From the IMG/VR virus record IMGVR_UViG_3300027749_000560, positions 1 through 20,050 of that record: a stretch of DNA of 20,050 bases, one strand, 5' to 3'. Made by a program: the position numbers and the translations under genes. Of the stretch, positions 3 to 19,194 are shown one piece after another. Origin of the DNA: a virus. Under the pieces are notes generated by a model. It had not been told where the DNA came from. It ran no database searches and saw nothing but the letters and a program-made list of their open reading frames with translations. The stretch's first letter is position 1. Every line of letters begins with the position of its first letter.

Positions 3-122
3 TGTTTATTTGTATCAAAAGAAAGAATTCGCCAAATAGAAGGCAACGCATTAAGAAGATTAAAAAGGGTTGCAAACTTAAATGATATTGTGAAATATGG
101 AGATAGCTATGAGTTTCATTGA
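3..122 (+). CDS. Sigma-70 region 4.2-like protein, C-terminal end (partial)
   Basis: The gene enters from the left edge with no start in the window. The 39 visible residues begin CLFVSKERIRQIEGNALRRL and end KYGDSYEFH. The run V-S-K-E-R-I-R-Q-I-E-x-x-A-L-R-R-L-K is the recognition helix of sigma-70 region 4.2, which contacts the -35 promoter element in RpoD/RpoS/RpoH-type factors. About 17 residues follow the helix, a little more than in many sigma factors. The stop codon overlaps the primase start by 14 bases, so both are probably translated from one message. The product could be a full sigma factor redirecting host RNA polymerase or a short region-4-only DNA-binding protein; the window does not show which. 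The family match is confident for the visible piece, and the role is inferred. Confidence 0.8.
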   Translation, partial: CLFVSKERIRQIEGNALRRLKRVANLNDIVKYGDSYEFH

Positions 123-993
123 TTTTGCACGCGCCCATGGCGTAGAGATTGAACAAAACAACCTGTACCCCTCAGAACGTATTCGTCGCTGTGGGACGAT
201 AGATAAACCTAAGTCAACCAACGGCGCATTCTTTTACGATGGCAAGCGTGGTTGGGTGATGAACTGGGCAGAAGAAGCCAAAGTAATTTGGTACGAAGAT
301 CCAAACGTCAAACCGTGGACTGATACGGAAAAGTCTGATTGGGCGGCGAAGCGTCAAATGATGAGTGCTGACAGGAACCGCTCATACGACATGGCCGCGG
401 ATCGTGCGGATATGCTTTTGCGTACAGCGAAGATGGAGAGTCACCCCTACCTAGAGATTAAAGGCTTTGCGGACATGCAGGGTTACGTGATGGGCGGCAA
501 ATTGCTGATACCCATGCGTAACGTGGTGACCAACAAATTTCAGGGCTTGCAAGAGATCTATTGGGATGAGCCAAACCGCAGGTACGAGAAGAAAATGATC
601 CACGGTATGCGCGCTAAGAATGCTGTGCTGTATATGGGCTCCAGAGAGGCTTCAGAGACGTGGTTTGTTGAAGGGTATGCCACAGGTCTATCCCTGCACA
701 AAGCCCTGCGTAGCACTGGCTCTAACGCATCTGTGGTGGTTTGTTTCTCAGCATCCAACATGGTCAATGTGGCCAGCCAAGTCAAAGGCGATAGATTTAT
801 CTTTGCTGATAACGACGAGAGCAAGACAGGCGAGAAGGCGGCTATAGAGACTGGCTTGCCTTGGACGATGGCTGACGAGGTGGGATACGACGTTAACGAC
901 CTGCACGATAAGTGCGGTTTGATGGCAGTTGTTAAGAAAGTTATGGACTTACGCAAAAAGGCATATGCAAACAAAATAGAAATGTCTGTATAA
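109..993 (+). CDS. Toprim-domain protein, primase-like
   Basis: A 294-residue protein with a C-terminal Toprim fold as in DNA primases of the P4/T7 type. It has the Toprim glutamate in WFVEGYATGLSLHKAL (E188), then FIFADNDESKTGEKAA with the D-x-D pair (D234, D236), then GYDVNDLHDKCG. LLIPMRN near 133 and FQGLQEIYW near 144 match the beta strands that usually precede Toprim in these proteins. The N-terminal 55 residues (RIRRCG, NGAFFYDGKRGWVMNW) resemble a primase zinc ribbon but keep only one cysteine. There is no helicase domain, so it would act with a separate helicase or as a primase only. The start is placed at 109 because GGAG at 99-102 lies six bases before it; the in-frame ATG at 97 has no such site. 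It overlaps the sigma-like gene. Confidence 0.85.
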   Translation: MSFIDFARAHGVEIEQNNLYPSERIRRCGTIDKPKSTNGAFFYDGKRGWVMNWAEEAKVIWYEDPNVKPWTDTEKSDWAAKRQMMSADRNRSYDMAADRADMLLRTAKMESHPYLEIKGFADMQGYVMGGKLLIPMRNVVTNKFQGLQEIYWDEPNRRYEKKMIHGMRAKNAVLYMGSREASETWFVEGYATGLSLHKALRSTGSNASVVVCFSASNMVNVASQVKGDRFIFADNDESKTGEKAAIETGLPWTMADEVGYDVNDLHDKCGLMAVVKKVMDLRKKAYANKIEMSV

Positions 994-1097: not shown

Positions 1098-1306
1098 TTT
1101 GACGACCGCTGTATCGGACGCGCACTGGCGGTAGCGATACAGGGACACCTCTACTACGGGATAGATGTTGAGATAGAGGCATGGGTGGCGAAGATAGCGC
1201 CCTAACATCGAACGGCTGTCGGGTCATGTGGCTCCAGTTAGCAGAAACATGTGAAGGCTTAGCCCCCTGTGGGAGGGCTGAGTCTGTCCACCAGAAAGCA
1301 GTCAAA
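1098..1306 (+). ncRNA. Candidate structured non-coding RNA
   Basis: This stretch has no credible gene but many nested complementary segments found by eye. The outer helix TTTGAC/GTCAAA pairs 1098-1103 with 1301-1306. An 8-bp hairpin pairs CTGTATCG (1109-1116) with 1135-1142. A 5-bp helix pairs 1143-1147 with 1285-1289. A 5-bp hairpin pairs 1225-1229 with 1247-1251, and an 8-bp hairpin pairs 1258-1265 with 1275-1282. CCTCTA (1148-1153) pairs with 1174-1179, while its loop segment GATGTT (1164-1169) pairs with AACATC (1204-1209), giving a pseudoknot or two alternative folds. A T-tailed terminator follows at 1346-1367. It does not match tRNA, tmRNA, RNase P RNA or 6S RNA as far as can be recognised. 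The strand is inferred from the terminator; function unknown. Confidence 0.4.
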
Positions 1307-4129: not shown

Positions 4130-4879
4130 TTAGGCTTTCTGGATAAACGCCAAAGCGTAGTAAGGGTTCAAGATGCTGAATGATGTACCAGAGCCAGCAG
4201 TTGCATTAGTTGTTGCAACACTAATGCCAGTTGTTGCGGTGTTTAAAGTAATAGTGCTAAAACTATAACCACCTCCAGCAATACCGCCACCACCAGAACC
4301 TGTGTACGCTTGGTAAGAAGTTGTGTGGGTGTGACCAGGGTCTGTCACAGTCGAGGTCGCTGTGTGCGTATGCGATGGCATATTGTTGGTTGTCAGCGTT
4401 ACAGATGACGCGCCACCAGTTCCGTTTACCGCATAAGTAGAACCAGCACCAATAATAAATCTGTCTGTCAGGTTAGGCGTTCCGTTTGAACCATCGCACA
4501 AATACCAACCCGATGGGATAGAACCAATCGAACCAGACCACATGGAAATAAGTCCCGCAGGAATAGTCGCACCGCTAGTTGCTTGTACGCCAATAATTCC
4601 GTAAAGATTGTCGTAAGTTTGTATCGTGCTATCACTAGAGTCTTTTAAAACAAACTTGTAGTTATAGCCATAAGTTAGCCATATTTCGCTAGATGGTCTG
4701 CCATCAGTACCTAACACGATAGGGTTGGCATTAGCCGTTGCACCCGTGTTATCGGTGTAGGTAGCAAGGGGCGTAGATGAACCCGCTTGGTAGGTGTATA
4801 TCTTGCCACCAGCAAGAGGTTGACCAGTAGTGGTAAAGAACTGAAAGCCGTTACCGATGGGGGAGAGATTGACTGCCAT
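4130..4879 (-). CDS. Tail fibre/collar-domain protein
   Basis: A 249-residue virion protein in two parts. Residues 1-90 (FFTTTGQPLAGGKIYTYQAG, TYTDNTGATANANPIVLGTDGR) form the beta-rich N-terminal module used by many podoviral tail spikes and fibres to attach to the tail. Residues 106-150 (IPAGLISMWSGSIGSIPSGWYLCDG…TPNLTDRFIIGAG) are a Phage_Tail_Collar domain. NNMPSHTHT (166-173) and PGHTHT (181-186) are the histidine pairs that bind metal in collar and short-tail-fibre trimers. The C-terminal ILNPYYALAFIQKA is the usual closing strand. It probably acts in host recognition at the tail tip. It follows the ejection proteins by nine bases. Confidence 0.85.
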   Translation of the reverse strand: MAVNLSPIGNGFQFFTTTGQPLAGGKIYTYQAGSSTPLATYTDNTGATANANPIVLGTDGRPSSEIWLTYGYNYKFVLKDSSDSTIQTYDNLYGIIGVQATSGATIPAGLISMWSGSIGSIPSGWYLCDGSNGTPNLTDRFIIGAGSTYAVNGTGGASSVTLTTNNMPSHTHTATSTVTDPGHTHTTSYQAYTGSGGGGIAGGGYSFSTITLNTATTGISVATTNATAGSGTSFSILNPYYALAFIQKA

Positions 4880-10140: not shown

Positions 10141-10377
10141 TTAGACATTGTAATATGGCACTTTGTATGGCACACCATTTATGGTAATGTTTATAAACCC
10201 AACGGGGTTAGCAGGCAAAGTACCTGACCCAGCCGTAGCCGTTGTCGCAGAACTGAAGTTGAGAAGATTAAGGAAGAACTGTTGCCATGCCCTTGTGGGG
10301 CGCTTAGTCTGTCCATCCAAGAACTCAGTCTGTGGGTATGGGTTTAACTGCGTGGTATTGGAAATGCCCGTAGCCAT
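10141..10377 (-). CDS. Small tail-associated phage protein
   Basis: A 78-residue protein. The first half (PYPQTEFLDGQTKRPTRAWQ, FFLNLLNF) is probably helical. The second half ends with PANPVGFINITINGVPYKVPYYNV, a short beta motif (G-x-I-x-x-x-I-N-G-x-x-Y-K-V-P-Y-Y) that recurs at the C-terminus of small proteins encoded beside head-tail connector genes in podoviruses. Its role is unknown but a structural one is likely. Its start overlaps the stop of the gp10-like gene as TAATG. Confidence 0.75.
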   Translation of the reverse strand: MATGISNTTQLNPYPQTEFLDGQTKRPTRAWQQFFLNLLNFSSATTATAGSGTLPANPVGFINITINGVPYKVPYYNV

Positions 10378-12263
10378 TAGTTTTCCCCACCAGTTGCTTT
10401 TAGGTTAGCCGAAATAATCACAGCGTTGATAGGGTCGCTCACGACCACTTCAAACACTCTATCTCTAGCCATACCCAATCTGCGCCAAATAGCACGATTC
10501 TTATACTTACCGATTTGACCAATAGAAGTCCAATGTTCACTTGACCATGTAGAGCCACCATCGTTTGACCAGCGAAGCATAGCCTGCGGGTCAGCGCCAA
10601 CGACCTCATCGTTTAATGGGGTAGTGATGCCCGTGATGCCAACGCCAGGCTGAAACTGTATTTGCAGTTCATCAAAGTATTGGCGTTGTAGGTCAGTCAC
10701 CAAGTGTGGCGCTCTGCGAAGCCTACGGGTGTACTGTCCGTTGTCGGTGTAGTTGTTCTTGTCTATCTCATAGATTGAGCCGTCTTGGTAGTCACCCACC
10801 AAAACTAGCCCTTGGAACACCGCACAGCAATTACCTCTGTGACGGGTATAAGTTCCGTCATTGTTGCTGTATAACCATTTATGCCACATTCCAGAGGCTA
10901 GGTCATACGCCCAAGTTAACTCTAGAGTAGGGAAAGACACTACATAAACTTCGTGACCTTCTAACTGGTAAGTCCAAGCAATAGCATCATCTACATATTG
11001 ATTGGTTATGGAGTTCTCAACAGCGTGGTTAGATATGCGGGTAGGCACATAGCCCTTCATCTGCATAATCTGCGCTTGACCTCGGTTGTTGCGCGAGACA
11101 TAACAGAACGAATCACCAAATCTAGCAAGGGAAAACTTAGCCGCAATGCCGTGTTGGGTGTTAGTGCCTGGGATTCTTGAAAAAGGAAAAGGGTTTCCAC
11201 CTACATCTGTCCAAACCTCAGAGGAGTTCTCACCCATTAGGTAAACTTCTCGGTGGTCAACAATAAGCGCCACTAGGTTATCTGGTGAGCCATCTTTGCT
11301 AGAAAACGATGTGTTGCCAGAAATAGGCGATGACACGCCAGATGCACCAAATTGTTGTGATGCTGGTCTGTTGTATACAAAGTAGTTATCAACAATGTCA
11401 CAAGTCTCACCCCCTGTGAACGCACCATCGCTTGATGGCAAAACAGTCCAATTAAGGGCGTACATCGTGATGGATGCGATTGTCTGTGAGTTGTTTACTG
11501 TGTAAGTTCCTGCGCCACCAGTACCCGTACCCAACGCAGTAATGATGGTTTGTGTAGTAATGCCAGCGCCTTGGATGGTCTGACCGACATACAAAGTACC
11601 ACTAGCAACAGATGCAACAGTTAGCGTAGTTCCAGATATGGCGGCAGTAATTACAGCGCCAGGACTTGATGTGTACATCTGGCTAGAAGCGATTGATTGC
11701 GACAACCCAAGGGTATATGTACCCGTTCCACCAGTTCCAGTTCCCAAAGCCGTTATAACTGTCTCTTGAAGTGCGCCAACAGCAAATAGGTTTTGACCAA
11801 CAGCGATAGTGCCAGATTTAACAGAAGTAACAGTCAAAGTCGTGCCAGAAGTAGAGCCTGTAAACACAGCGGCAGTCACAGTAGAAATGCGCCATGTATA
11901 GCGATATGTGCCGTCTACGATATAAGCGTTGATTCCGTTGTCAGAAATGGTGACGCGACCCGTTGTAGTGTTTAACTGCCCAATCATTGTGGGAGTCAAA
12001 AGGCTGTTAAACACATAGACATAAGCGCCACAAACGGCAAGCATCCTTGTGCCACCAGATAGCGTTCTAAGCCCACGAACCTCTTGTTGGTTGGGCAAAA
12101 TGGCTTTAATCGTCAGACCTGGCGTTGGGTATAGCGCTACCACCCCTCGGTCACCAGGCTGTTTAAGTGGGTCAACTTCTGGAAGAAAGTTTATACACTC
12201 ATTCGAGTCTTGGTAAACCGAAGTCGCTGGGTAGGAGGGGCCAACAAAGCCAAAGTCTGCCAT
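10377..12263 (-). CDS. P22 gp10-like packaged DNA stabilisation protein
   Basis: A 628-residue head-closure protein related to P22 gp10, which joins the portal/gp4 ring to the tail needle and keeps packaged DNA in the capsid. The N-terminal [83 protein letters not shown] and ASGMWHKW runs are the usual landmarks of the family and describe a beta-propeller-like body. Two tandem 68-residue beta-rich repeats (about 131-198 and 203-270) interrupt that body and explain why the protein is longer than P22 gp10. It is joined to the gp4-like gene by TAATG (12261-12265), so the two head-completion proteins are coupled. Confidence 0.85.
11454..11873 (-). repeat. Two tandem beta-domain repeats in the gp10-like gene
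   Basis: Units at 11670-11873 and 11454-11657 encode about 68 residues each. Both share S-G-T-T-L-T-V-x-S-V-x-S-G-T-x-x-V-G-Q, then [13 protein letters not shown]-x-G-T-Y-T, then S-Q-x-I-A-S. The DNA copies have diverged, so the duplication is not recent. A third, more divergent unit lies in the gp4-like gene at 12791-13003. Confidence 0.8.
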
Positions 12264-13243
12264 TAAGTAAATCCACCATTTAATATAAACCCTGCATCTT
12301 TGGCGCGACCAACCAGTAATGAATCTGGGTATCTTGCAGTTTGCAATGGTGACATATTGGTGCGCTTGAGGGTTGCTTTTGCTTGTGCGGCAAAAGCGTT
12401 AATCATGGCAATTTGAGTTTGTGAGGCTTTGCCATACATAGGCATTAAACGCTCTGCCAAGCACCATCTGAGGCACATTGAATAGCCTTGTGGCAACGCG
12501 ATGTTGTCGTACAAAGTGTTGTATCTGCTAAAAATGGTGTTAGCAAACATGTGCATCTCGCCCTGTGAGGGGTTTGGCCACACAAAGAGGTTTCCCGTAT
12601 CAGCGCCAGCATTGAAATACAACGCTTTTGGCCACGGGCCATTCAGCGTCTTTAGACCAATCATCTCGTAATCTTCTAACGCCAAAATAGATATTGGGTA
12701 ATCCAATCCACCGCTTACGATGGGCATACCATTTGAGTTAGTGTTAATACGAACAAAAGCAGAGTTAATACCCAAAGGCTTTTCGTAGTAAGCAGTTATT
12801 GTGGTTGATGAAACTGTCTGGCTAATGTCCAGTTGATAAGTACCAACCTCATTTACATTACCGCCAGCGCCCGTCAAAAAGTCCACAATCTTTGTGCCTG
12901 CTGTGATTCCTGTGCCTTTAAGGGTTTGCCCTTGTGCCACAGCGCCAGAACCAATAGCGGTAACAGTTAGCACATCACCAGTAATTGAGCCTGTGAAAGA
13001 TGCACCAATGAAGTTTGCGGTAGACGCTACGGGGCCAATCGTGTATTGGGTCTGCCCCGCAATGACTGGGAAGATAATCTCAGTCACATTAAATACCATC
13101 ATGTCCTCATTTGACCATTGGTCAATGAGGTCGTTGAGCATATCCAGAGCGTCTGTCGCGGCATCCGAAGTCGGTGTTTCACCAGCCTCTAAAGCGCCTA
13201 TGTCTTTTAATGCTCTGCTAATAATGTCGATGGGCTGAGTCAT
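12263..13243 (-). CDS. P22 gp4-like tail accessory factor
   Basis: A 326-residue protein of the P22 gp4 type, the ring that binds under the portal after DNA packaging and begins head closure. Family landmarks are [40 protein letters not shown], the strand [13 protein letters not shown], then after an insertion [49 protein letters not shown] and the helical [22 protein letters not shown]. The usual P22 gp4 is about half this size. Part of the excess is a beta domain inserted at residues 81-151, matching the repeats in the neighbouring gp10-like protein. The gene lies three bases after the preceding one and shares TAATG with the next. Confidence 0.85.
12791..13003 (-). repeat. Related beta-domain insertion in the gp4-like gene
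   Basis: This encodes residues 81-151, with [16 protein letters not shown]-x-[17 protein letters not shown] and S-Q-T-V-S-S-T-T-I. The order of motifs is the same as in the two repeats at 11454-11873. It separates the strand TQYTIGP from EKPLGIN, which are adjacent in a standard gp4 fold. Confidence 0.75.
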
Positions 13244-13818: not shown

Positions 13819-14285
13819 GCCGCAATCTCCATAAGTGTTAATGTAGAAGTTGTTGCATTAGAAGAATAATCATTTATTCTTGCGGCATTTCCCGCAGAGG
13901 TGCTTGCTAGTCTAATGGTATAACTTATTGCACTTGTCGTTGCTGGAGAATCAAGATATGTCAAACTTGAAGAACTATATACAATATTAGATGCATATTG
14001 AGCAAGATACGCTAAAACTGTTCCAGCATTGTTATTTAAAGAAACATTAAGATACCCTGTCAATCCATTAGCATTACAAAGTATTAAAACTTTGTTAGAA
14101 GCGTTTGATGGCGTAATCGTAGTTGTTAATACTGTTGTAAATGATGTTGATGTAGTTGATGTATAAGTATTTACTAAAGTACTTACAACTTGCAAAACCT
14201 TACCAGAAGATGCTTGCACCGCAGATGTTCCACCCGCTGTTACTGGGAATGTGATACCAGCCGTTCCATCCAATGTAAGTGCCAT
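13815..14285 (-). CDS. Tail fibre-like beta protein
   Basis: A 156-residue protein rich in threonine, serine and alanine with almost no charged residues, typical of trimeric fibre tips. The opening ALTLDGTAGITFPVTAGGTS and SSGKVLQVVST are found at the start of many short phage fibre proteins. The rest alternates short beta strands and ends TSTLTLMEIAA, a common last strand. It has no enzyme motif. It shares TAATG with the S74 fibre gene; GGAGAG six bases upstream of its ATG is a good ribosome site. It is probably part of the receptor-binding apparatus. Confidence 0.7.
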   Translation of the reverse strand: MALTLDGTAGITFPVTAGGTSAVQASSGKVLQVVSTLVNTYTSTTSTSFTTVLTTTITPSNASNKVLILCNANGLTGYLNVSLNNNAGTVLAYLAQYASNIVYSSSSLTYLDSPATTSAISYTIRLASTSAGNAARINDYSSNATTSTLTLMEIAA

Positions 14286-15235
14286 TATTTGCTCTCCAAG
14301 GCCACCACACGGGCGGTTAGTGCGTCATTCTTTGCTGAAAGTTCTTGTATAGCCGCTGTTAGTGTTGCTACTAGGAATGATGTGTCAATGCCTTGATATA
14401 CGGGGTTTCCGTGTTCATCTACTGCATCTTTAGAACCAGTTACACATTCTGGTACTACTGCTTGCAGTTCATGTGCAATAAAACCTTGACTAGCAGAACC
14501 ATCAATTTTCCATTTATATGTAACGGGTTTTAATTGTGAAACAGTATTTAATGCACCCGTCATAGGTGCAATGTTTTCTTTTAAGCGGTGGTCAGAAGAT
14601 GTGTTGTAAGCAGTAGAAGAAGCGCCAGGAACAATAGTTCCAACAGTTGAACCAGCAACATTATTAAAAACCATGGCATTGAAACTATCAGTTACTGATG
14701 CTTGAATTCCCATTCCCCATTTAGAGGCTGGATTAACTTTTAGATTTATATAAGCCGCAGAACTAACAGCACTTGTAGTCCCCACCAGCAAGTTACCGCT
14801 AGAGTCGATACGCATACGCTCTGTTGTAGAACTATTTGTACCGCTAGTTCCAAAAGTTAAAGCCGCCCCGTTTTCATAAGCAGAAAACTCATAGTTTCCG
14901 CTAGATAAACGACCTATGCGACCATAAATAGAAGCGTTATAAGAAAACTGCGCCTGTGCAGTTGTAGTATTAAGAATGTCAAGTTTGCTTCCTGGCGAAG
15001 CAGTACCAATCCCCACATTCTGTGAAGTATCAATAGTTACTGCCGTAGTAGTTCCATTAGATGCAAGTGTTAATGCGCCAGCAGAAGTTACTTTTCCAGC
15101 AAAAGTAGCGTTTTGACTAGTATCAATAGTTACTGCCGTAGTGCCAGCAGTTTGTAGTGCTAATGAGCCAGAATTGTCACCAGTAGCAATAAAGCCACCC
15201 GCCCCCGCAGTAGAGGCATTAAGCGTAGTTGTCAA
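14285..15235 (-). CDS. Tail fibre with peptidase S74 chaperone domain
   Basis: A 316-residue fibre. The N-terminal LNASTAGAGGFIATGDNSGS and two copies of TTAVTIDTSQN (about 32-42 and 63-73) are fibre repeats; a beta region with ERMRIDSSGNLLVGT follows. The C-terminal 105 residues are an intramolecular chaperone auto-processing (peptidase S74) domain: SSDHRLKENI (213-222) gives the Ser-Asp and Lys signature for self-cleavage, then GFIAHELQAVVPECVTG and a coiled-coil end. The domain trimerises the fibre and is then cut off. The start is taken as TTG at 15235 because AAGGAG (15243-15248) lies seven bases upstream; another TTG at 15259 would add eight residues. It overlaps the end of the endonuclease gene. 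Confidence 0.85.
   Translation of the reverse strand: MTTTLNASTAGAGGFIATGDNSGSLALQTAGTTAVTIDTSQNATFAGKVTSAGALTLASNGTTTAVTIDTSQNVGIGTASPGSKLDILNTTTAQAQFSYNASIYGRIGRLSSGNYEFSAYENGAALTFGTSGTNSSTTERMRIDSSGNLLVGTTSAVSSAAYINLKVNPASKWGMGIQASVTDSFNAMVFNNVAGSTVGTIVPGASSTAYNTSSDHRLKENIAPMTGALNTVSQLKPVTYKWKIDGSASQGFIAHELQAVVPECVTGSKDAVDEHGNPVYQGIDTSFLVATLTAAIQELSAKNDALTARVVALESK
15027..15142 (-). repeat. 23-bp perfect direct repeat in the S74 fibre gene
   Basis: The 23 bases at 15027-15049 recur exactly at 15120-15142, 93 bases (31 codons) apart. They encode the shared T-A-V-T-I-D-T of the two fibre repeats. The identity at DNA level suggests a fairly recent duplication or gene conversion between fibre units. 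Confidence 0.8.
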
Positions 15236-15893
15236 TTTGTTTCTCCTTGCAGTTGTCAAAATGCCACCTAGGCATTGCTGTTACCCCGCCTTGCTTACTG
15301 CAATGAGGACAAGTAATTATTTCATGTTTACGCCCTTTATGGGCATTACTTAACGATTGCCGACCAGCATCAGACAATACAGTTCTTGGTTTGTTTGCTT
15401 TGATTTTGGCAATAGTTTCTGCCGTATGTTTTATGCCTTTACGATGACTTGGTTTGCCAATCTTGGCATCACTTAGTTTTTGCTTTACATCATCAGGCGT
15501 TTCCATGCCTTTATTCCATGCAGTTTTAAACAAAGAAATTTGCTTCTTAATAATGCCTTTTCCTTTGTTTGGCGGTGTTTTACCAAGACCATACTGGTTT
15601 CCATAAACAGAAGGAGGTTTCCCCCCGCCTTTGGTTATATTCCAACCTATTTCGTTCTGCGCTCTTAACTTTGTTTCAATCATCAAACAATAGGCTTCAT
15701 CAGCAATTAACAATACTTTTTTGATAAGAGCATCCCAACCATATTTTTTTATAGCATTTCCAAGATGAGGGTTTTGTGCTTCACGCTTGTGGCGATTCCA
15801 TCTAGCACGAACATTATTGGACACACCAATGTATCCCTGACTGAACATATCTGTATGGTCAGGGTGGTGAATCCAATAGACGCTAGATGTCAT
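15219..15893 (-). CDS. GIY-YIG homing endonuclease with NUMOD3-like repeats and zinc finger
   Basis: A 224-residue free-standing homing endonuclease. VYWIHHP…QGYIGVSNN (5-27) is the GIY-YIG motif, R31 and H35 lie in RARWNRH, and E73 in MIETKLRAQ is the metal-binding catalytic glutamate. Short glycine/lysine repeats of the NUMOD3 DNA-binding kind follow: PPNKGKG (107-113), WNKGM (126-130), KIGKPSHRKGIKHT (144-157) and AHKGRK (184-189). The end, CPHCSKQGG…RWHFDNCK, has C195, C198, H211 and C215 as a C2HC zinc finger. It would nick or cut a related phage genome lacking the gene and copy itself across. It sits between two fibre genes, starts in the stop codon of the small XkdW-like gene, and its last codons contain the next gene's ribosome site. 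Confidence 0.9.
   Translation of the reverse strand: MTSSVYWIHHPDHTDMFSQGYIGVSNNVRARWNRHKREAQNPHLGNAIKKYGWDALIKKVLLIADEAYCLMIETKLRAQNEIGWNITKGGGKPPSVYGNQYGLGKTPPNKGKGIIKKQISLFKTAWNKGMETPDDVKQKLSDAKIGKPSHRKGIKHTAETIAKIKANKPRTVLSDAGRQSLSNAHKGRKHEIITCPHCSKQGGVTAMPRWHFDNCKEKQIDNYA
15227..15259 (-). promoter_or_regulatory. Ribosome site AAGGAG with paired TTG starts in a 9-bp repeat
   Basis: AAGGAG at 15243-15248 lies seven bases before TTG 15235. The nonamer TTGACAACT occurs twice on the minus strand, at 15251-15259 and 15227-15235, so each copy opens with an in-frame TTG. The upstream copy also has a weaker AGGTGG before it. The site lies within the last codons of the endonuclease. Confidence 0.6.
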
Positions 15894-16051
15894 GCTAATT
15901 GTTCCTCAGTTGGTCTAGCAATGGTTTGGTGTTCCCACTTGGCTATGTAATCGCCTTTGCCATCAGAGTCGTTTTGTAGTGTGATTACAGTCATAAAGTC
16001 ATGTTCTGTAAGTTCTGGGTATAGGGTTTTGATTTTTTCGTATAGCATCAT
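15890..16051 (-). CDS. XkdW-like small tail protein
   Basis: A 53-residue gene. The protein begins MMLYEKIKTLYPELTEHDFM and ends LQNDSDGKGDYIAKWEHQTIARPTEEQLA. The pattern Y-E-K-I…Y-P-x-L…D-F and L-x-N-D-S-D-G-K-G-D-Y-I-A-K-W-E-H…R-P-T-x-E-Q-L is that of the XkdW family found beside phage tail-fibre genes. AGGGG precedes the start. ATG 16051 overlaps the C1q-like gene's stop (ATGA), with a second ATG at 16048. Its own stop overlaps the endonuclease start by ATGA, so the endonuclease was added exactly at its end. Its role in fibre assembly is unproven. Confidence 0.8.
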   Translation of the reverse strand: MMLYEKIKTLYPELTEHDFMTVITLQNDSDGKGDYIAKWEHQTIARPTEEQLA

Positions 16052-16596: not shown

Positions 16597-19194
16597 TTAA
16601 AGAACAATCCAACGCTGTCCAGATGTGACTGTTACTGCTTGACCGCTTGCCACAGTTATCGGGCCTACCGAGAATCCGTTATTGCCGCTTGCTATTGTGT
16701 AACTTGCGCTTACTGTCGTGCCGTTAATCAATATGCCGTTTGATGCAATAACTTCTGGGGCGGTCAATTCGCCTGTGCTTGGGTTGTACTTGTACTTTGT
16801 AGAACTTACATACTCCGTACTTACAGTACCACTTGTAGCGTTAGCAAACAATGGATAGCGCGTGGCGTTTGTGGTTGTATCGTCACTAATCGTTACCGCA
16901 GTTCCAGCCGTTGCCCAAGTGAAAGCCGTTCCACTCCAAGTCAATGCTGTGCTTGCCGTGGTTGGCGCTACAACAAAAGAAGTCGCGCCAACGCCCGTTT
17001 GGTAAGGAATCTGGTTAGCCGTTCCACCACCGATGTTTGTTGCGGTCGTTGCGGTTGTCGCAGTTGTAGCGGTAGCCGCGTTGCCACCAATAGACAAACT
17101 AGAAGCCGTACCTGTAAGACCCGTACCCGCGCCAGAGAACGATGTAGAGGTTAAAACGCCCGTAGAAGGGTTAAATTGGTACTTGGTAGAGGATACATAC
17201 TCTGTCGTTAGATTACCGCTTGTAGCGTTGGCATACAGAGGGTATCGGGTCGCATTAGTAGTCGTATCGTCTGTGACTGTTGCATACGATGTTGGCGTTG
17301 ACCAACTAGGTGCGCTTGAGCCGTTAGAGGTTAGAACTTGACCAGTAGTGCCAGCAGTAGTTACCGCCAACGCTGTGGTAGTAGAGCCATAAACTATGCC
17401 ACCAGCAACAAACAAAGATGATTGTCCTGTGCCACCTCGGTTATAGGCAATAACATTGCCGTTCCATGTGCCAGAAGTGAATGAGCCAGCGTAATCAAAT
17501 GTATTGGTTGACCAAGAAACATTGGATGGGGCAAAGTTATGCACATCCCATGAACCCGCGGCTATTGAGTTACTCAGCAAAATTACATCAACATAACCGC
17601 CCGATTGGATGGTTGCGACAGTCGTGCTTGAGTTGTTTTGGACAACAATCGTTCCACTTGTTTGGTTGTTGTTAAATGTGTAGTTAGCGCCATTAGCCAA
17701 TGTGGTGGCATCTGGCAATTTATAAGTCTGACCGCCCGAACCAGTTACTACATAGTTAGGCACAGAAGCAACAGTAAGCACAGTTGTTGTGCCTGCCGCG
17801 GCAACATTAGAAAACCCTTCGCTTACAGCGTTTGCGCTAATGTTTACGCTTGCATCTCTTAAAACTACCGAGTTAGCACCAGTTGACGCTGTTACACCAG
17901 TTCCACCATTTGCCACATTAAGCGTTCCAGACAATGTGACCGCGCCCGTTGTGTTACTCGAAGGCGTGAAACCCGTTGTACCAGCAGAGAATGTGCTTAC
18001 AAAGTTGCCAGATAAAGCACTTGTAGGAATTGTTGTAGACGCTGTTACCGCGCTACTGCCATTACCATATAGATAGCCCGTCAAACTGCTTGTAATCAGC
18101 GTTCCAAGCGTTGCCGAGCCACCAGTAATCGCTACTGAATTGGCGTTTTGGGTTGACATTGTGCCAAGCCCAGAAATATCCGTGTTCGGTATTGTTGAAA
18201 CAGTCGTAAAAGCGGTTGTTCCGCTTGCTTTTACATAACCAGCACTAAAAGTCGTTGCGCCAGTACCGCCATAAGCAACACCGATGGTCGATGCGTTCCA
18301 AGTGCCTGCGGTTAGCGTTCCTACGCCCGTAATGCCTGTGTAAGAGCCAGAAATTCGTGCTGTGTCTATCGTGCCAGATGTAATCTGATTCGCGGCAATC
18401 GCAATGCTTGTGTTAGTTACCGATGTAACTTGACCACTAGCGTTGGTGACAAATACTGGAACGCTTGATGCCGAGCCATAAGTGCCTGCTGTTCCTACGG
18501 GCGTGATACTGAATTGAAAGCCAGCAAGGGTTAGCCCTGTTCCAGCCGTATAAATTGCGTTGTTCGAGAATTGAACAAAAGTAACGGGCGTAGTTCCTAG
18601 AGTGCCACCAAGTTGGTTTGTGTCAACCCAAGATGAGCCACTCCACACAGTACCAGAAATGATGAAAAGGTAAGCCGCGACTATCTCTGTCCATACATTT
18701 GCATCATCTGAACGCACCCAAGCAGTAGCAGAAGCCACATAAATGCCGTTTTCAGCGCCAGAAGTTTGGTTTTTTACAAGAATTCTGTTGCCAGCAGTTA
18801 GCGTAGCAGTCCAATCACCATTTGCTTGTACAGCGAGACCAGAAAGCGTAATGTTTCCAGTTGTGGTGAAGTTTGCTGGTTGTTTAAACGATAAACCCTG
18901 TGATGTAGCGTCTACATAAGCCTTGTTTGCTATGTCAGTTGACGCGCTTGGGCTTGTAAATATCGTTCCAGTATTAGTGGTGATATTTGTAAATACTCCC
19001 GTTGAAGGAGTAGTTGCACCAATAGTCGTTGAATCTATCGTGCTATTTGTGATTACTAGCCCAGATTGAAATGGGCTAATAGTCGCTAAGAATGGCTGAC
19101 CCTGACCAATAAATGTTTGAAAAACCCCGTCAACCGAAAAGTACGCTTGAACGGGGAGTAAATTTTGTATAACAGAATTGGCAGGGTTAGCCAT
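16597..19194 (-). CDS. Long tail fibre protein
   Basis: An 865-residue, Ser/Thr/Gly/Ala-rich fibre with hardly any charged residues. Residues 1-50 (VIQNLLPVQAYFSVDGVFQT, FIGQGQPFLATIS) are probably the tail-attachment part. DIANKAYVDATSQGLSFKQP and ILVKNQTSGAENGIYVASATAWVRSDDANVW (87-168) form a repeat-type domain common in long phage fibres. The shaft has GGTG turns (AYGGTG 308, NGGTG 429, RGGTG 586). Near the end a 44-residue unit, DDTTTNATRYPL…TEYVSSTKY…NPSTG, occurs twice (639-682 and 768-811), and alanine/threonine repeats lie at 705-720. No S74 or collar domain closes it, so trimerisation depends on other factors. AAGGGG precedes the ATG. Confidence 0.85.
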   Translation of the reverse strand: MANPANSVIQNLLPVQAYFSVDGVFQTFIGQGQPFLATISPFQSGLVITNSTIDSTTIGATTPSTGVFTNITTNTGTIFTSPSASTDIANKAYVDATSQGLSFKQPANFTTTGNITLSGLAVQANGDWTATLTAGNRILVKNQTSGAENGIYVASATAWVRSDDANVWTEIVAAYLFIISGTVWSGSSWVDTNQLGGTLGTTPVTFVQFSNNAIYTAGTGLTLAGFQFSITPVGTAGTYGSASSVPVFVTNASGQVTSVTNTSIAIAANQITSGTIDTARISGSYTGITGVGTLTAGTWNASTIGVAYGGTGATTFSAGYVKASGTTAFTTVSTIPNTDISGLGTMSTQNANSVAITGGSATLGTLITSSLTGYLYGNGSSAVTASTTIPTSALSGNFVSTFSAGTTGFTPSSNTTGAVTLSGTLNVANGGTGVTASTGANSVVLRDASVNISANAVSEGFSNVAAAGTTTVLTVASVPNYVVTGSGGQTYKLPDATTLANGANYTFNNNQTSGTIVVQNNSSTTVATIQSGGYVDVILLSNSIAAGSWDVHNFAPSNVSWSTNTFDYAGSFTSGTWNGNVIAYNRGGTGQSSLFVAGGIVYGSTTTALAVTTAGTTGQVLTSNGSSAPSWSTPTSYATVTDDTTTNATRYPLYANATSGNLTTEYVSSTKYQFNPSTGVLTSTSFSGAGTGLTGTASSLSIGGNAATATTATTATTATNIGGGTANQIPYQTGVGATSFVVAPTTASTALTWSGTAFTWATAGTAVTISDDTTTNATRYPLFANATSGTVSTEYVSSTKYKYNPSTGELTAPEVIASNGILINGTTVSASYTIASGNNGFSVGPITVASGQAVTVTSGQRWIVL
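16762..17280 (-). repeat. Duplicated 132-bp fibre segment plus short tandem repeats
   Basis: Units at 17149-17280 and 16762-16893 encode nearly the same 44 residues, with differences mostly at third positions and a few replacements (L/F, NLTT/TVST, QF/KY). Between them, 17035-17082 encodes an alanine-threonine-threonine run from imperfect 9-base units. Such repeats can recombine and change fibre length. Confidence 0.75.

Follow-up and report, generated by a model that had tools for sequence, protein, structure and literature searches.

A free-standing GIY-YIG homing endonuclease gene, probably mobile, at the very 5' end of a phage tail-fibre gene

How does an endonuclease gene come to lie between two overlapping virion genes without breaking either of them? 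The question is raised by a 20,050-base virus fragment (hereafter, the window), whose virion genes form one run, all read in one direction on the minus strand. A preliminary description, made from the letters alone, had placed a GIY-YIG homing endonuclease at positions 15219-15893 of this run, between an XkdW-like gene and an S74 fibre gene, and had suggested that it could drive co-conversion of the neighbouring receptor-binding genes. The open reading frame of this homing endonuclease gene (HEG) is exactly as described (15219..15893, minus strand; 224 aa, intact), and both neighbours, also intact and on the minus strand, score above the Pfam cut-offs, the upstream gene (15890..16051; 53 aa) with XkdW (32.6 bits versus a cut-off of 24.6), and the downstream gene (14285..15235) with Peptidase_S74, the C-terminal S74 chaperone domain (53.2 versus 22). 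The overlap with the XkdW gene is 4 nt (15890-15893), and the overlap with the fibre gene is 17 nt if the latter starts at the TTG at 15235, the probable start, which has an AAGGAG 7 nt upstream; a longer listed TTG start, at 15259, has no counterpart in the HEG-free alleles. The HEG is located outside any intron or intein, between two complete genes, and a search of the locus with Rfam detected no intron or other RNA family at the gene, so the possibility of an intron-borne gene was rejected. An assembly artefact was rejected as well, since the same arrangement is present on contigs L001 and L002 and in the cultured phage MEP301. As these two contigs represent further sightings of the window's own phage, and as the HEG is under purifying selection, the arrangement is not due to chance.

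As to the nature of the gene product, comparison with known families identifies it as a GIY-YIG homing endonuclease, a putative nuclease. Its residues 1-90 (15624..15893, minus strand) correspond to the catalytic domain, with Y6, Y21-G23, R31, H35, E73 and N85 recognized through alignment, an AlphaFold2 model and PDB matches. Across 39 aligned relatives, no variation is seen at Y21, G23, R31, E73, N85, G89 or G90, and very little at Y6 and H35. The Pfam score for GIY-YIG (20.2 bits) is just under the cut-off (22.6), and the PHROG homing-endonuclease families are matched with a best E of 7.6e-20. The model (mean pLDDT 77.3, pTM 0.44) is of low confidence for residues 93-128, with pLDDT mostly above 85 for residues 1-90, and its best PDB matches by Foldseek are structures of the I-TevI catalytic domain, 1mk0 (probability 1.00, E 0.017, target TM 0.64) and 1ln0 (target TM 0.68); neither the profile nor the fold (Foldseek) search against the PDB gave a match under E 0.001. 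The NUMOD3-like repeats of the preliminary description turn out to be one stretch only, above the Pfam cut-off (residues 136-164, 15402..15488, minus strand; 28.6 bits versus 20.4), while the residues of its C2HC finger (C195, C198, H211 and C215; 15249..15311, minus strand) are all in place, and are conserved in the 39-member alignment. I-TevI is likewise made up of a GIY-YIG domain, a zinc finger and other DNA-binding parts. The two enzymes are alike in catalytic fold (sequence E 0.034) and, as predicted below, in having a target close to the insertion point, but I-TevI is intron-encoded, whereas the HEG of the window has no intron, and its finger is C-terminal and of the C2HC type. Between the HEGs of the window and of locus L003, dN is 0.032 and dS is 0.495, a ratio that indicates purifying selection on the protein. 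With the catalytic residues conserved and dN/dS low, a catalytically dead relic was rejected; presence with mutated catalytic residues only, an outcome that the preliminary description had considered, did not occur.

Multiple empty sites reveal the HEG as an insertion. The preliminary description had proposed a search for relatives with the adjacent fibre genes and no endonuclease, and two such loci, L088 and L241, have the XkdW gene running straight into the same fibre gene (MTTTLNASTAGAGGFIAT...). When the reverse-complemented window is aligned with these loci, similarity extends to window base 4162 and resumes at 4817, the subject positions overlapping by four bases. The identical junction and the alignment gap together imply that the window carries an insertion of about 658 bp at the fibre start, approximately at 15235..15892 (minus strand), the edges being ambiguous by a few nucleotides (ATGA/TTGA). 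In the HEG-free relatives the XkdW gene ends, and the fibre protein begins, as in the window, so that neither neighbour is broken, as had been proposed. Another example is L089, which possesses the same junction followed by a different S74 gene. In L003, a HEG 94% identical at the protein level is found at the same fibre start, behind a different upstream gene, and the HEG-free counterparts of this context (L240, L265, L286 and L287) proceed directly from that upstream gene to the fibre start.

This comparison was extended to 80 of the 253 HEG relatives. The 97 HEG copies were reduced to 72 distinct ones, 69 of them with a downstream gene, of which 40 belong to the near clade, and 38 of these 40 were used, two being without left flank. 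A HEG-free counterpart, with similarity stopping at the junction, was found for 18 of these 38 loci, and no HEG-free counterpart was found for the other 20 among the loci compared. Conversely, of the 79 loci with XkdW, one was removed by a coverage filter (two others have less than 100 nt downstream), and in only seven of the 78 placeable ones, the window's own phage being one of the seven, does a member of the HEG family directly follow XkdW. Rather than being carried by all relatives, an outcome also considered in the preliminary description, the gene is thus present or absent at matching junctions, and a stable resident gene was rejected on the grounds of its absence from most XkdW junctions. 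The intact state of the HEG, its co-orientation and its translational coupling to the fibre genes would also suit a domesticated gene, one settled in the fibre operon as a regulator or assembly factor and no longer mobile, but its low frequency after XkdW, the presence of the same HEG in different contexts and the complete appearance of the HEG-free relatives make domestication very improbable.

What else was brought along with the HEG can be judged from the start of the fibre gene, for which 15 distinct alleles were compared, two with the HEG (the window and L003) and 13 without (L273/L274, which represent the window's phage, and L280, a duplicate of L279, were left out). Seven columns (nt 1, 6, 12, 15, 30, 33 and 36) fully separate the HEG-bearing from the HEG-free alleles, the former representing two independent lineages of the window's fibre allele, whose HEGs are related; no fixed difference is found among the 15 alleles in nt 46-123. 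Seven private columns are reached by one of the 105 possible allele pairs, namely the occupied one. Apart from a start codon switched from ATG to TTG, and an Ala-Val replacement in L003, the changes are synonymous, so that the fixed differences of the window are all synonymous but for its start codon. Beyond nt 45, the nearest alleles are L277/L278 for the window and L294, L287 and L290 for L003, all of these HEG-free. Compared to the nearest HEG-free start, that of L240, the window shows 31% mismatch in nt 1-18, 22% in nt 19-36 and none in nt 37-111. In the HEG-bearing alleles of the window, L003, L004 and L014, mismatch is high in nt 1-36 and absent from nt 37-54, while in a fifth, L015, the mismatches extend into nt 37-54. 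When five HEG-bearing starts are compared with 74 HEG-free control starts, the excess is limited to nt 1-36 (p 3e-4 and 2.3e-3 for bins 1-18 and 19-36), and with a looser threshold (12 versus 106 starts) these bins give p 8.5e-6 and 1.2e-4. The matching was run twice with different windows, the second chosen after the first had been seen, and the excess in nt 1-36 appeared in both; in the first run, the 55-90 bin was also nominally higher in HEG-bearing starts (p 0.046). An exact scan of the viral collection with a 20-mer from the recoded tract returned three contigs, the two of the window's phage and L003, all HEG-bearing, while the pattern of the uninterrupted type returned 11 contigs, whose alleles were all scored as HEG-free.

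These first 36 nt of the fibre gene (15200..15235, minus strand), shared only by the other HEG-bearing allele, have the appearance expected of a short co-conversion tract, and would at the same time represent an altered target, the target itself being predicted within the first ~40-54 nt. As nt 37-54 are conserved in nearly all alleles, the edge of the tract is placed between nt 36 and ~54, and not finer. The similarity between the window and L003 continues beyond the tract, from the second base of the HEG to 124 bp inside the fibre gene. The N-terminal module is also kept in HEG-free genes (over 119 bp of it, the identity between L240 and the window is 92%), and therefore this longer similarity alone is no evidence of transfer; the recoded 36 nt are the informative part. 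The recoding might also be simply the divergent fibre start of the lineage from which the HEG came, carried along while resistance to cutting was not selected for. The same pattern would be expected with a distantly related donor, and other HEG-bearing tracts include amino acid changes (L014 versus L345, L004 versus L163), but the differences in the window are synonymous bar the start codon, and the recoded 20-mer occurs only with the HEG. We see such a passive origin as quite plausible, if somewhat short of an even chance; it contradicts the self-protection part alone, and still implies co-transfer with the HEG. Overall, these comparisons support co-conversion of flanking DNA along with the HEG, short and one-sided, covering the first ~12-18 codons of the downstream fibre gene.

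The co-conversion of receptor-binding genes anticipated in the preliminary description is thus supported for the first 36 nt of the fibre gene: because the detectable tract covers the first ~12-18 codons only and the fibre bodies differ between otherwise matching HEG-bearing loci, exchange of receptor-binding parts driven by the HEG is no more than a possibility. Similarity between the window and L003 falls from 0.94 for the HEG and 0.82 for the downstream N-terminus to 0.36 for the fibre body and 0.09 for the upstream gene, and the fibre bodies differ in the closest HEG pairs in general. L104 and L255 have in common the HEG and about 100 bp, while L241 and L124 have in common the HEG and everything downstream, but not the upstream gene. 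Correlations were calculated for sets of 36, 33 and 29 loci, as left by filters. HEG similarity correlates with similarity over the 45 N-terminal aa of the downstream product (rho 0.58 for 36 loci, 0.43-0.44 in the reduced sets; p 0.001), and hardly with that of the upstream gene (rho 0.15, p 0.005 for 36 loci; 0.01, p >0.4 in the reduced sets). Controlling for the N-terminus leaves a weak correlation with the fibre body (partial rho 0.17-0.27, p <= 0.003). As far as these loci tell, it is the N-terminus of the downstream gene that HEG similarity tracks.

This pattern bears on the possibility that cutting is not the driver at all, and that the HEG arrives at gene boundaries by ordinary illegitimate or homologous recombination, with selection keeping those insertions that can be translated. 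Fibre regions are highly mosaic, unrelated endonucleases (HNH_3 and other GIY-YIG types) are also found directly after XkdW, and the exact position at a gene boundary could be a survivorship effect. Such a passive process does not easily account for HEG type following the downstream N-terminal module and not the upstream gene, for recoded tracts that stop close to nt 36 in four HEG-bearing alleles, or for the conserved catalytic residues and low dN/dS, and we regard it as unlikely. Our preferred reading, which we consider likely, is that the free-standing GIY-YIG homing endonuclease is mobile and inserts its gene right at the 5' end of tail-fibre genes.

The HEG also appears to take over the signals of the gene that it displaces. 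Judged from the HEG-free counterparts that were compared closely, the position of the HEG coincides with the beginning of the downstream gene or falls a few codons further in. A GAGG near the end of the XkdW gene (15904..15907, minus strand), which serves the fibre gene in HEG-free relatives, would be the Shine-Dalgarno sequence inherited by the HEG. Some HEGs begin with the codons of a fibre gene: the endonuclease of L114 shares its first 11 nt with the HEG-free fibre start of L143, and that of L241 shares its first 10 nt with the fibre start of L240. One example from a cultured phage is presented by MEP301, in which the enzyme carries MASIKLQGDTS as a fused leader, and MASIKLQGDVSG, in different codons, stands at the renewed start of the gene that follows. 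A permutation test over 38 loci detects resemblance between leader and downstream gene (p 0.0018, significant for the loci as a set only), carried by a handful of loci; the leader of the window, at rank 16 of 38, represents no clear capture of the gene now downstream.

The displaced gene, in turn, seems to be provided with a new signal. The AAGGAG at 15243..15248 (minus strand), encoded by Lys216-Glu217 of the HEG, is, from its sequence and from comparison of copies, the likely Shine-Dalgarno sequence of the fibre gene. A Shine-Dalgarno core of at least 4 nt is present within the last codons in 67 of the 69 distinct copies with an identifiable next gene, and in all 69 the start of the next gene is either no more than 4 nt from the HEG stop or located inside the HEG itself. 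In HEGs ending with Cys-Lys-Glu, the lysine is encoded by AAG in 33 of 35 copies, versus 26.5% elsewhere in these genes (p 3e-17); the two exceptions carry AAAGAA, and L013 and L016, with AAAGAA, have AAGGA a few codons later. In one fibre class, TTG is the start codon of the following gene in 7 of 12 cases with the HEG, versus 1 of 46 without it. Compact phage operons commonly place a Shine-Dalgarno sequence within the gene before, and the end of XkdW is another such case; what appears unusual is that a conserved zinc-finger tail would supply it wherever the HEG lands, including before non-fibre genes in other phages. No description of a downstream-gene Shine-Dalgarno sequence embedded in an endonuclease was found in the accessible portions of the open-access literature, including those of PMC2988022, PMC8594841, PMC3296691 and PMC4546147. 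In a distant HEG branch (L046, L048, L050, L054, L056, L058 and L060), the gene directly following starts with MQVPILSGIYTD.../VTQIAILNGIYAD..., a Shine-Dalgarno sequence is again present in the finger tail, and some loci match the Hc3 protein of the window.

For the mobile element that we favour, the following sequence of events may be proposed. The enzyme would make its cut in the first ~40-54 bp of an uninterrupted fibre gene. Repair of the break from a HEG-bearing genome would copy in the HEG along with the first ~36 nt of that genome's fibre gene, the synonymous changes in which could also prevent re-cutting. The resident ribosome-binding site and start position would then serve the HEG, the first codons of the fibre gene being retained in some loci as a leader, and the displaced fibre gene would be translated from the Shine-Dalgarno sequence in the C-terminal Cys-Lys-Glu codons, leaving both neighbours intact and the operon still coupled. 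The natural series of occupied and empty alleles thus places the predicted cleavage target within a few dozen base pairs and shows how a selfish gene can enter between overlapping genes without harm; with cut sites, tract lengths and resistance alleles predicted, the suspected link between homing endonucleases and tail-fibre exchange becomes directly testable.

Among known systems, the SegA-SegG enzymes of phage T4 are similar in being free-standing GIY-YIG endonucleases with intronless homing, encoded between structural or replication genes, co-oriented with them (segD excepted), and in co-converting their flanks (PMC2988022). According to the same text, T4 free-standing enzymes cut hundreds to thousands of bp away from their own gene or insertion site, whereas the predicted target of the window's HEG is at the insertion point, the recoded tract pointing to <=~54 nt. 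Within the coding region of some T4 free-standing endonuclease genes there are promoters that serve the gene downstream (PMC2988022); the signal proposed here is instead a Shine-Dalgarno sequence in a zinc-finger tail, which would act in translation, and the element of the window would also seize the start codon of the fibre gene. The closest likeness in a cultured phage is gp20 of Methylophilales phage MEP301, a putative endonuclease, 47% identical over 80% of the query and encoded directly between tail structural and tail fibre genes. It differs in being placed behind the first 11 fibre codons, in having no C2HC finger, in the codons that hold the Shine-Dalgarno sequence, and in being annotated only as an endonuclease.

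A broader proposal, tentative enough that we would rather bet against it, is that this is a family of start-codon parasites, in which the conserved zinc-finger tail would be a portable ribosome-binding site, allowing the element to land on almost any gene start in an operon, take its start signals and hand over a new one. In fibre operons, it would target the conserved N-terminal modules of receptor-binding proteins, cut near nt 36 and recode the tract, thereby creating recombination points that may reshuffle the variable fibre bodies between phages.

The site after XkdW looks like a hotspot, as it also hosts HNH_3, other GIY-YIG and I-HmuI-like endonucleases. The HNH_3 endonucleases of L140, L147, L010 and L091 occupy the same XkdW-fibre junction as the HEG and possess an unrelated nuclease fold. 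Three of these proteins (L140:5159-5725, L147:1450-2001 and L010:2277-2798), encoded directly after XkdW, begin with a fibre-type N-terminal module, and the gene that follows belongs to another fibre type in L140 and L147, which gives the leader the look of a scar left by a fibre gene since replaced. Two diverged copies of the HEG family are present in one fibre gene cluster in L009 (4995-5744 and 6623-7351) and in L082 (2083-2742 and 3974-4453).

Other features of the window are also of note. Positions 1107-1224 (plus strand) match the Rfam family Betaproteobacteria-1 RNA (103 bits), which suggests that the host is a betaproteobacterium and that the phage carries a copy of this RNA family. 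The head-closure-like and SU10-adaptor-like proteins (10377-12263 and 12263-13243, minus strand) both contain a similar glycine/threonine-rich module (phrog_21413, phrog_38233), which resembles a decoration module that has entered virion genes unrelated to each other. An 865-aa fibre gene (16597-19194, minus strand) contains an internal duplication, apparent from an off-diagonal match to L001 (75% identity over 104 bp), and a Toprim_3 protein is encoded at 97-993 (plus strand), on the strand opposite to the virion genes.
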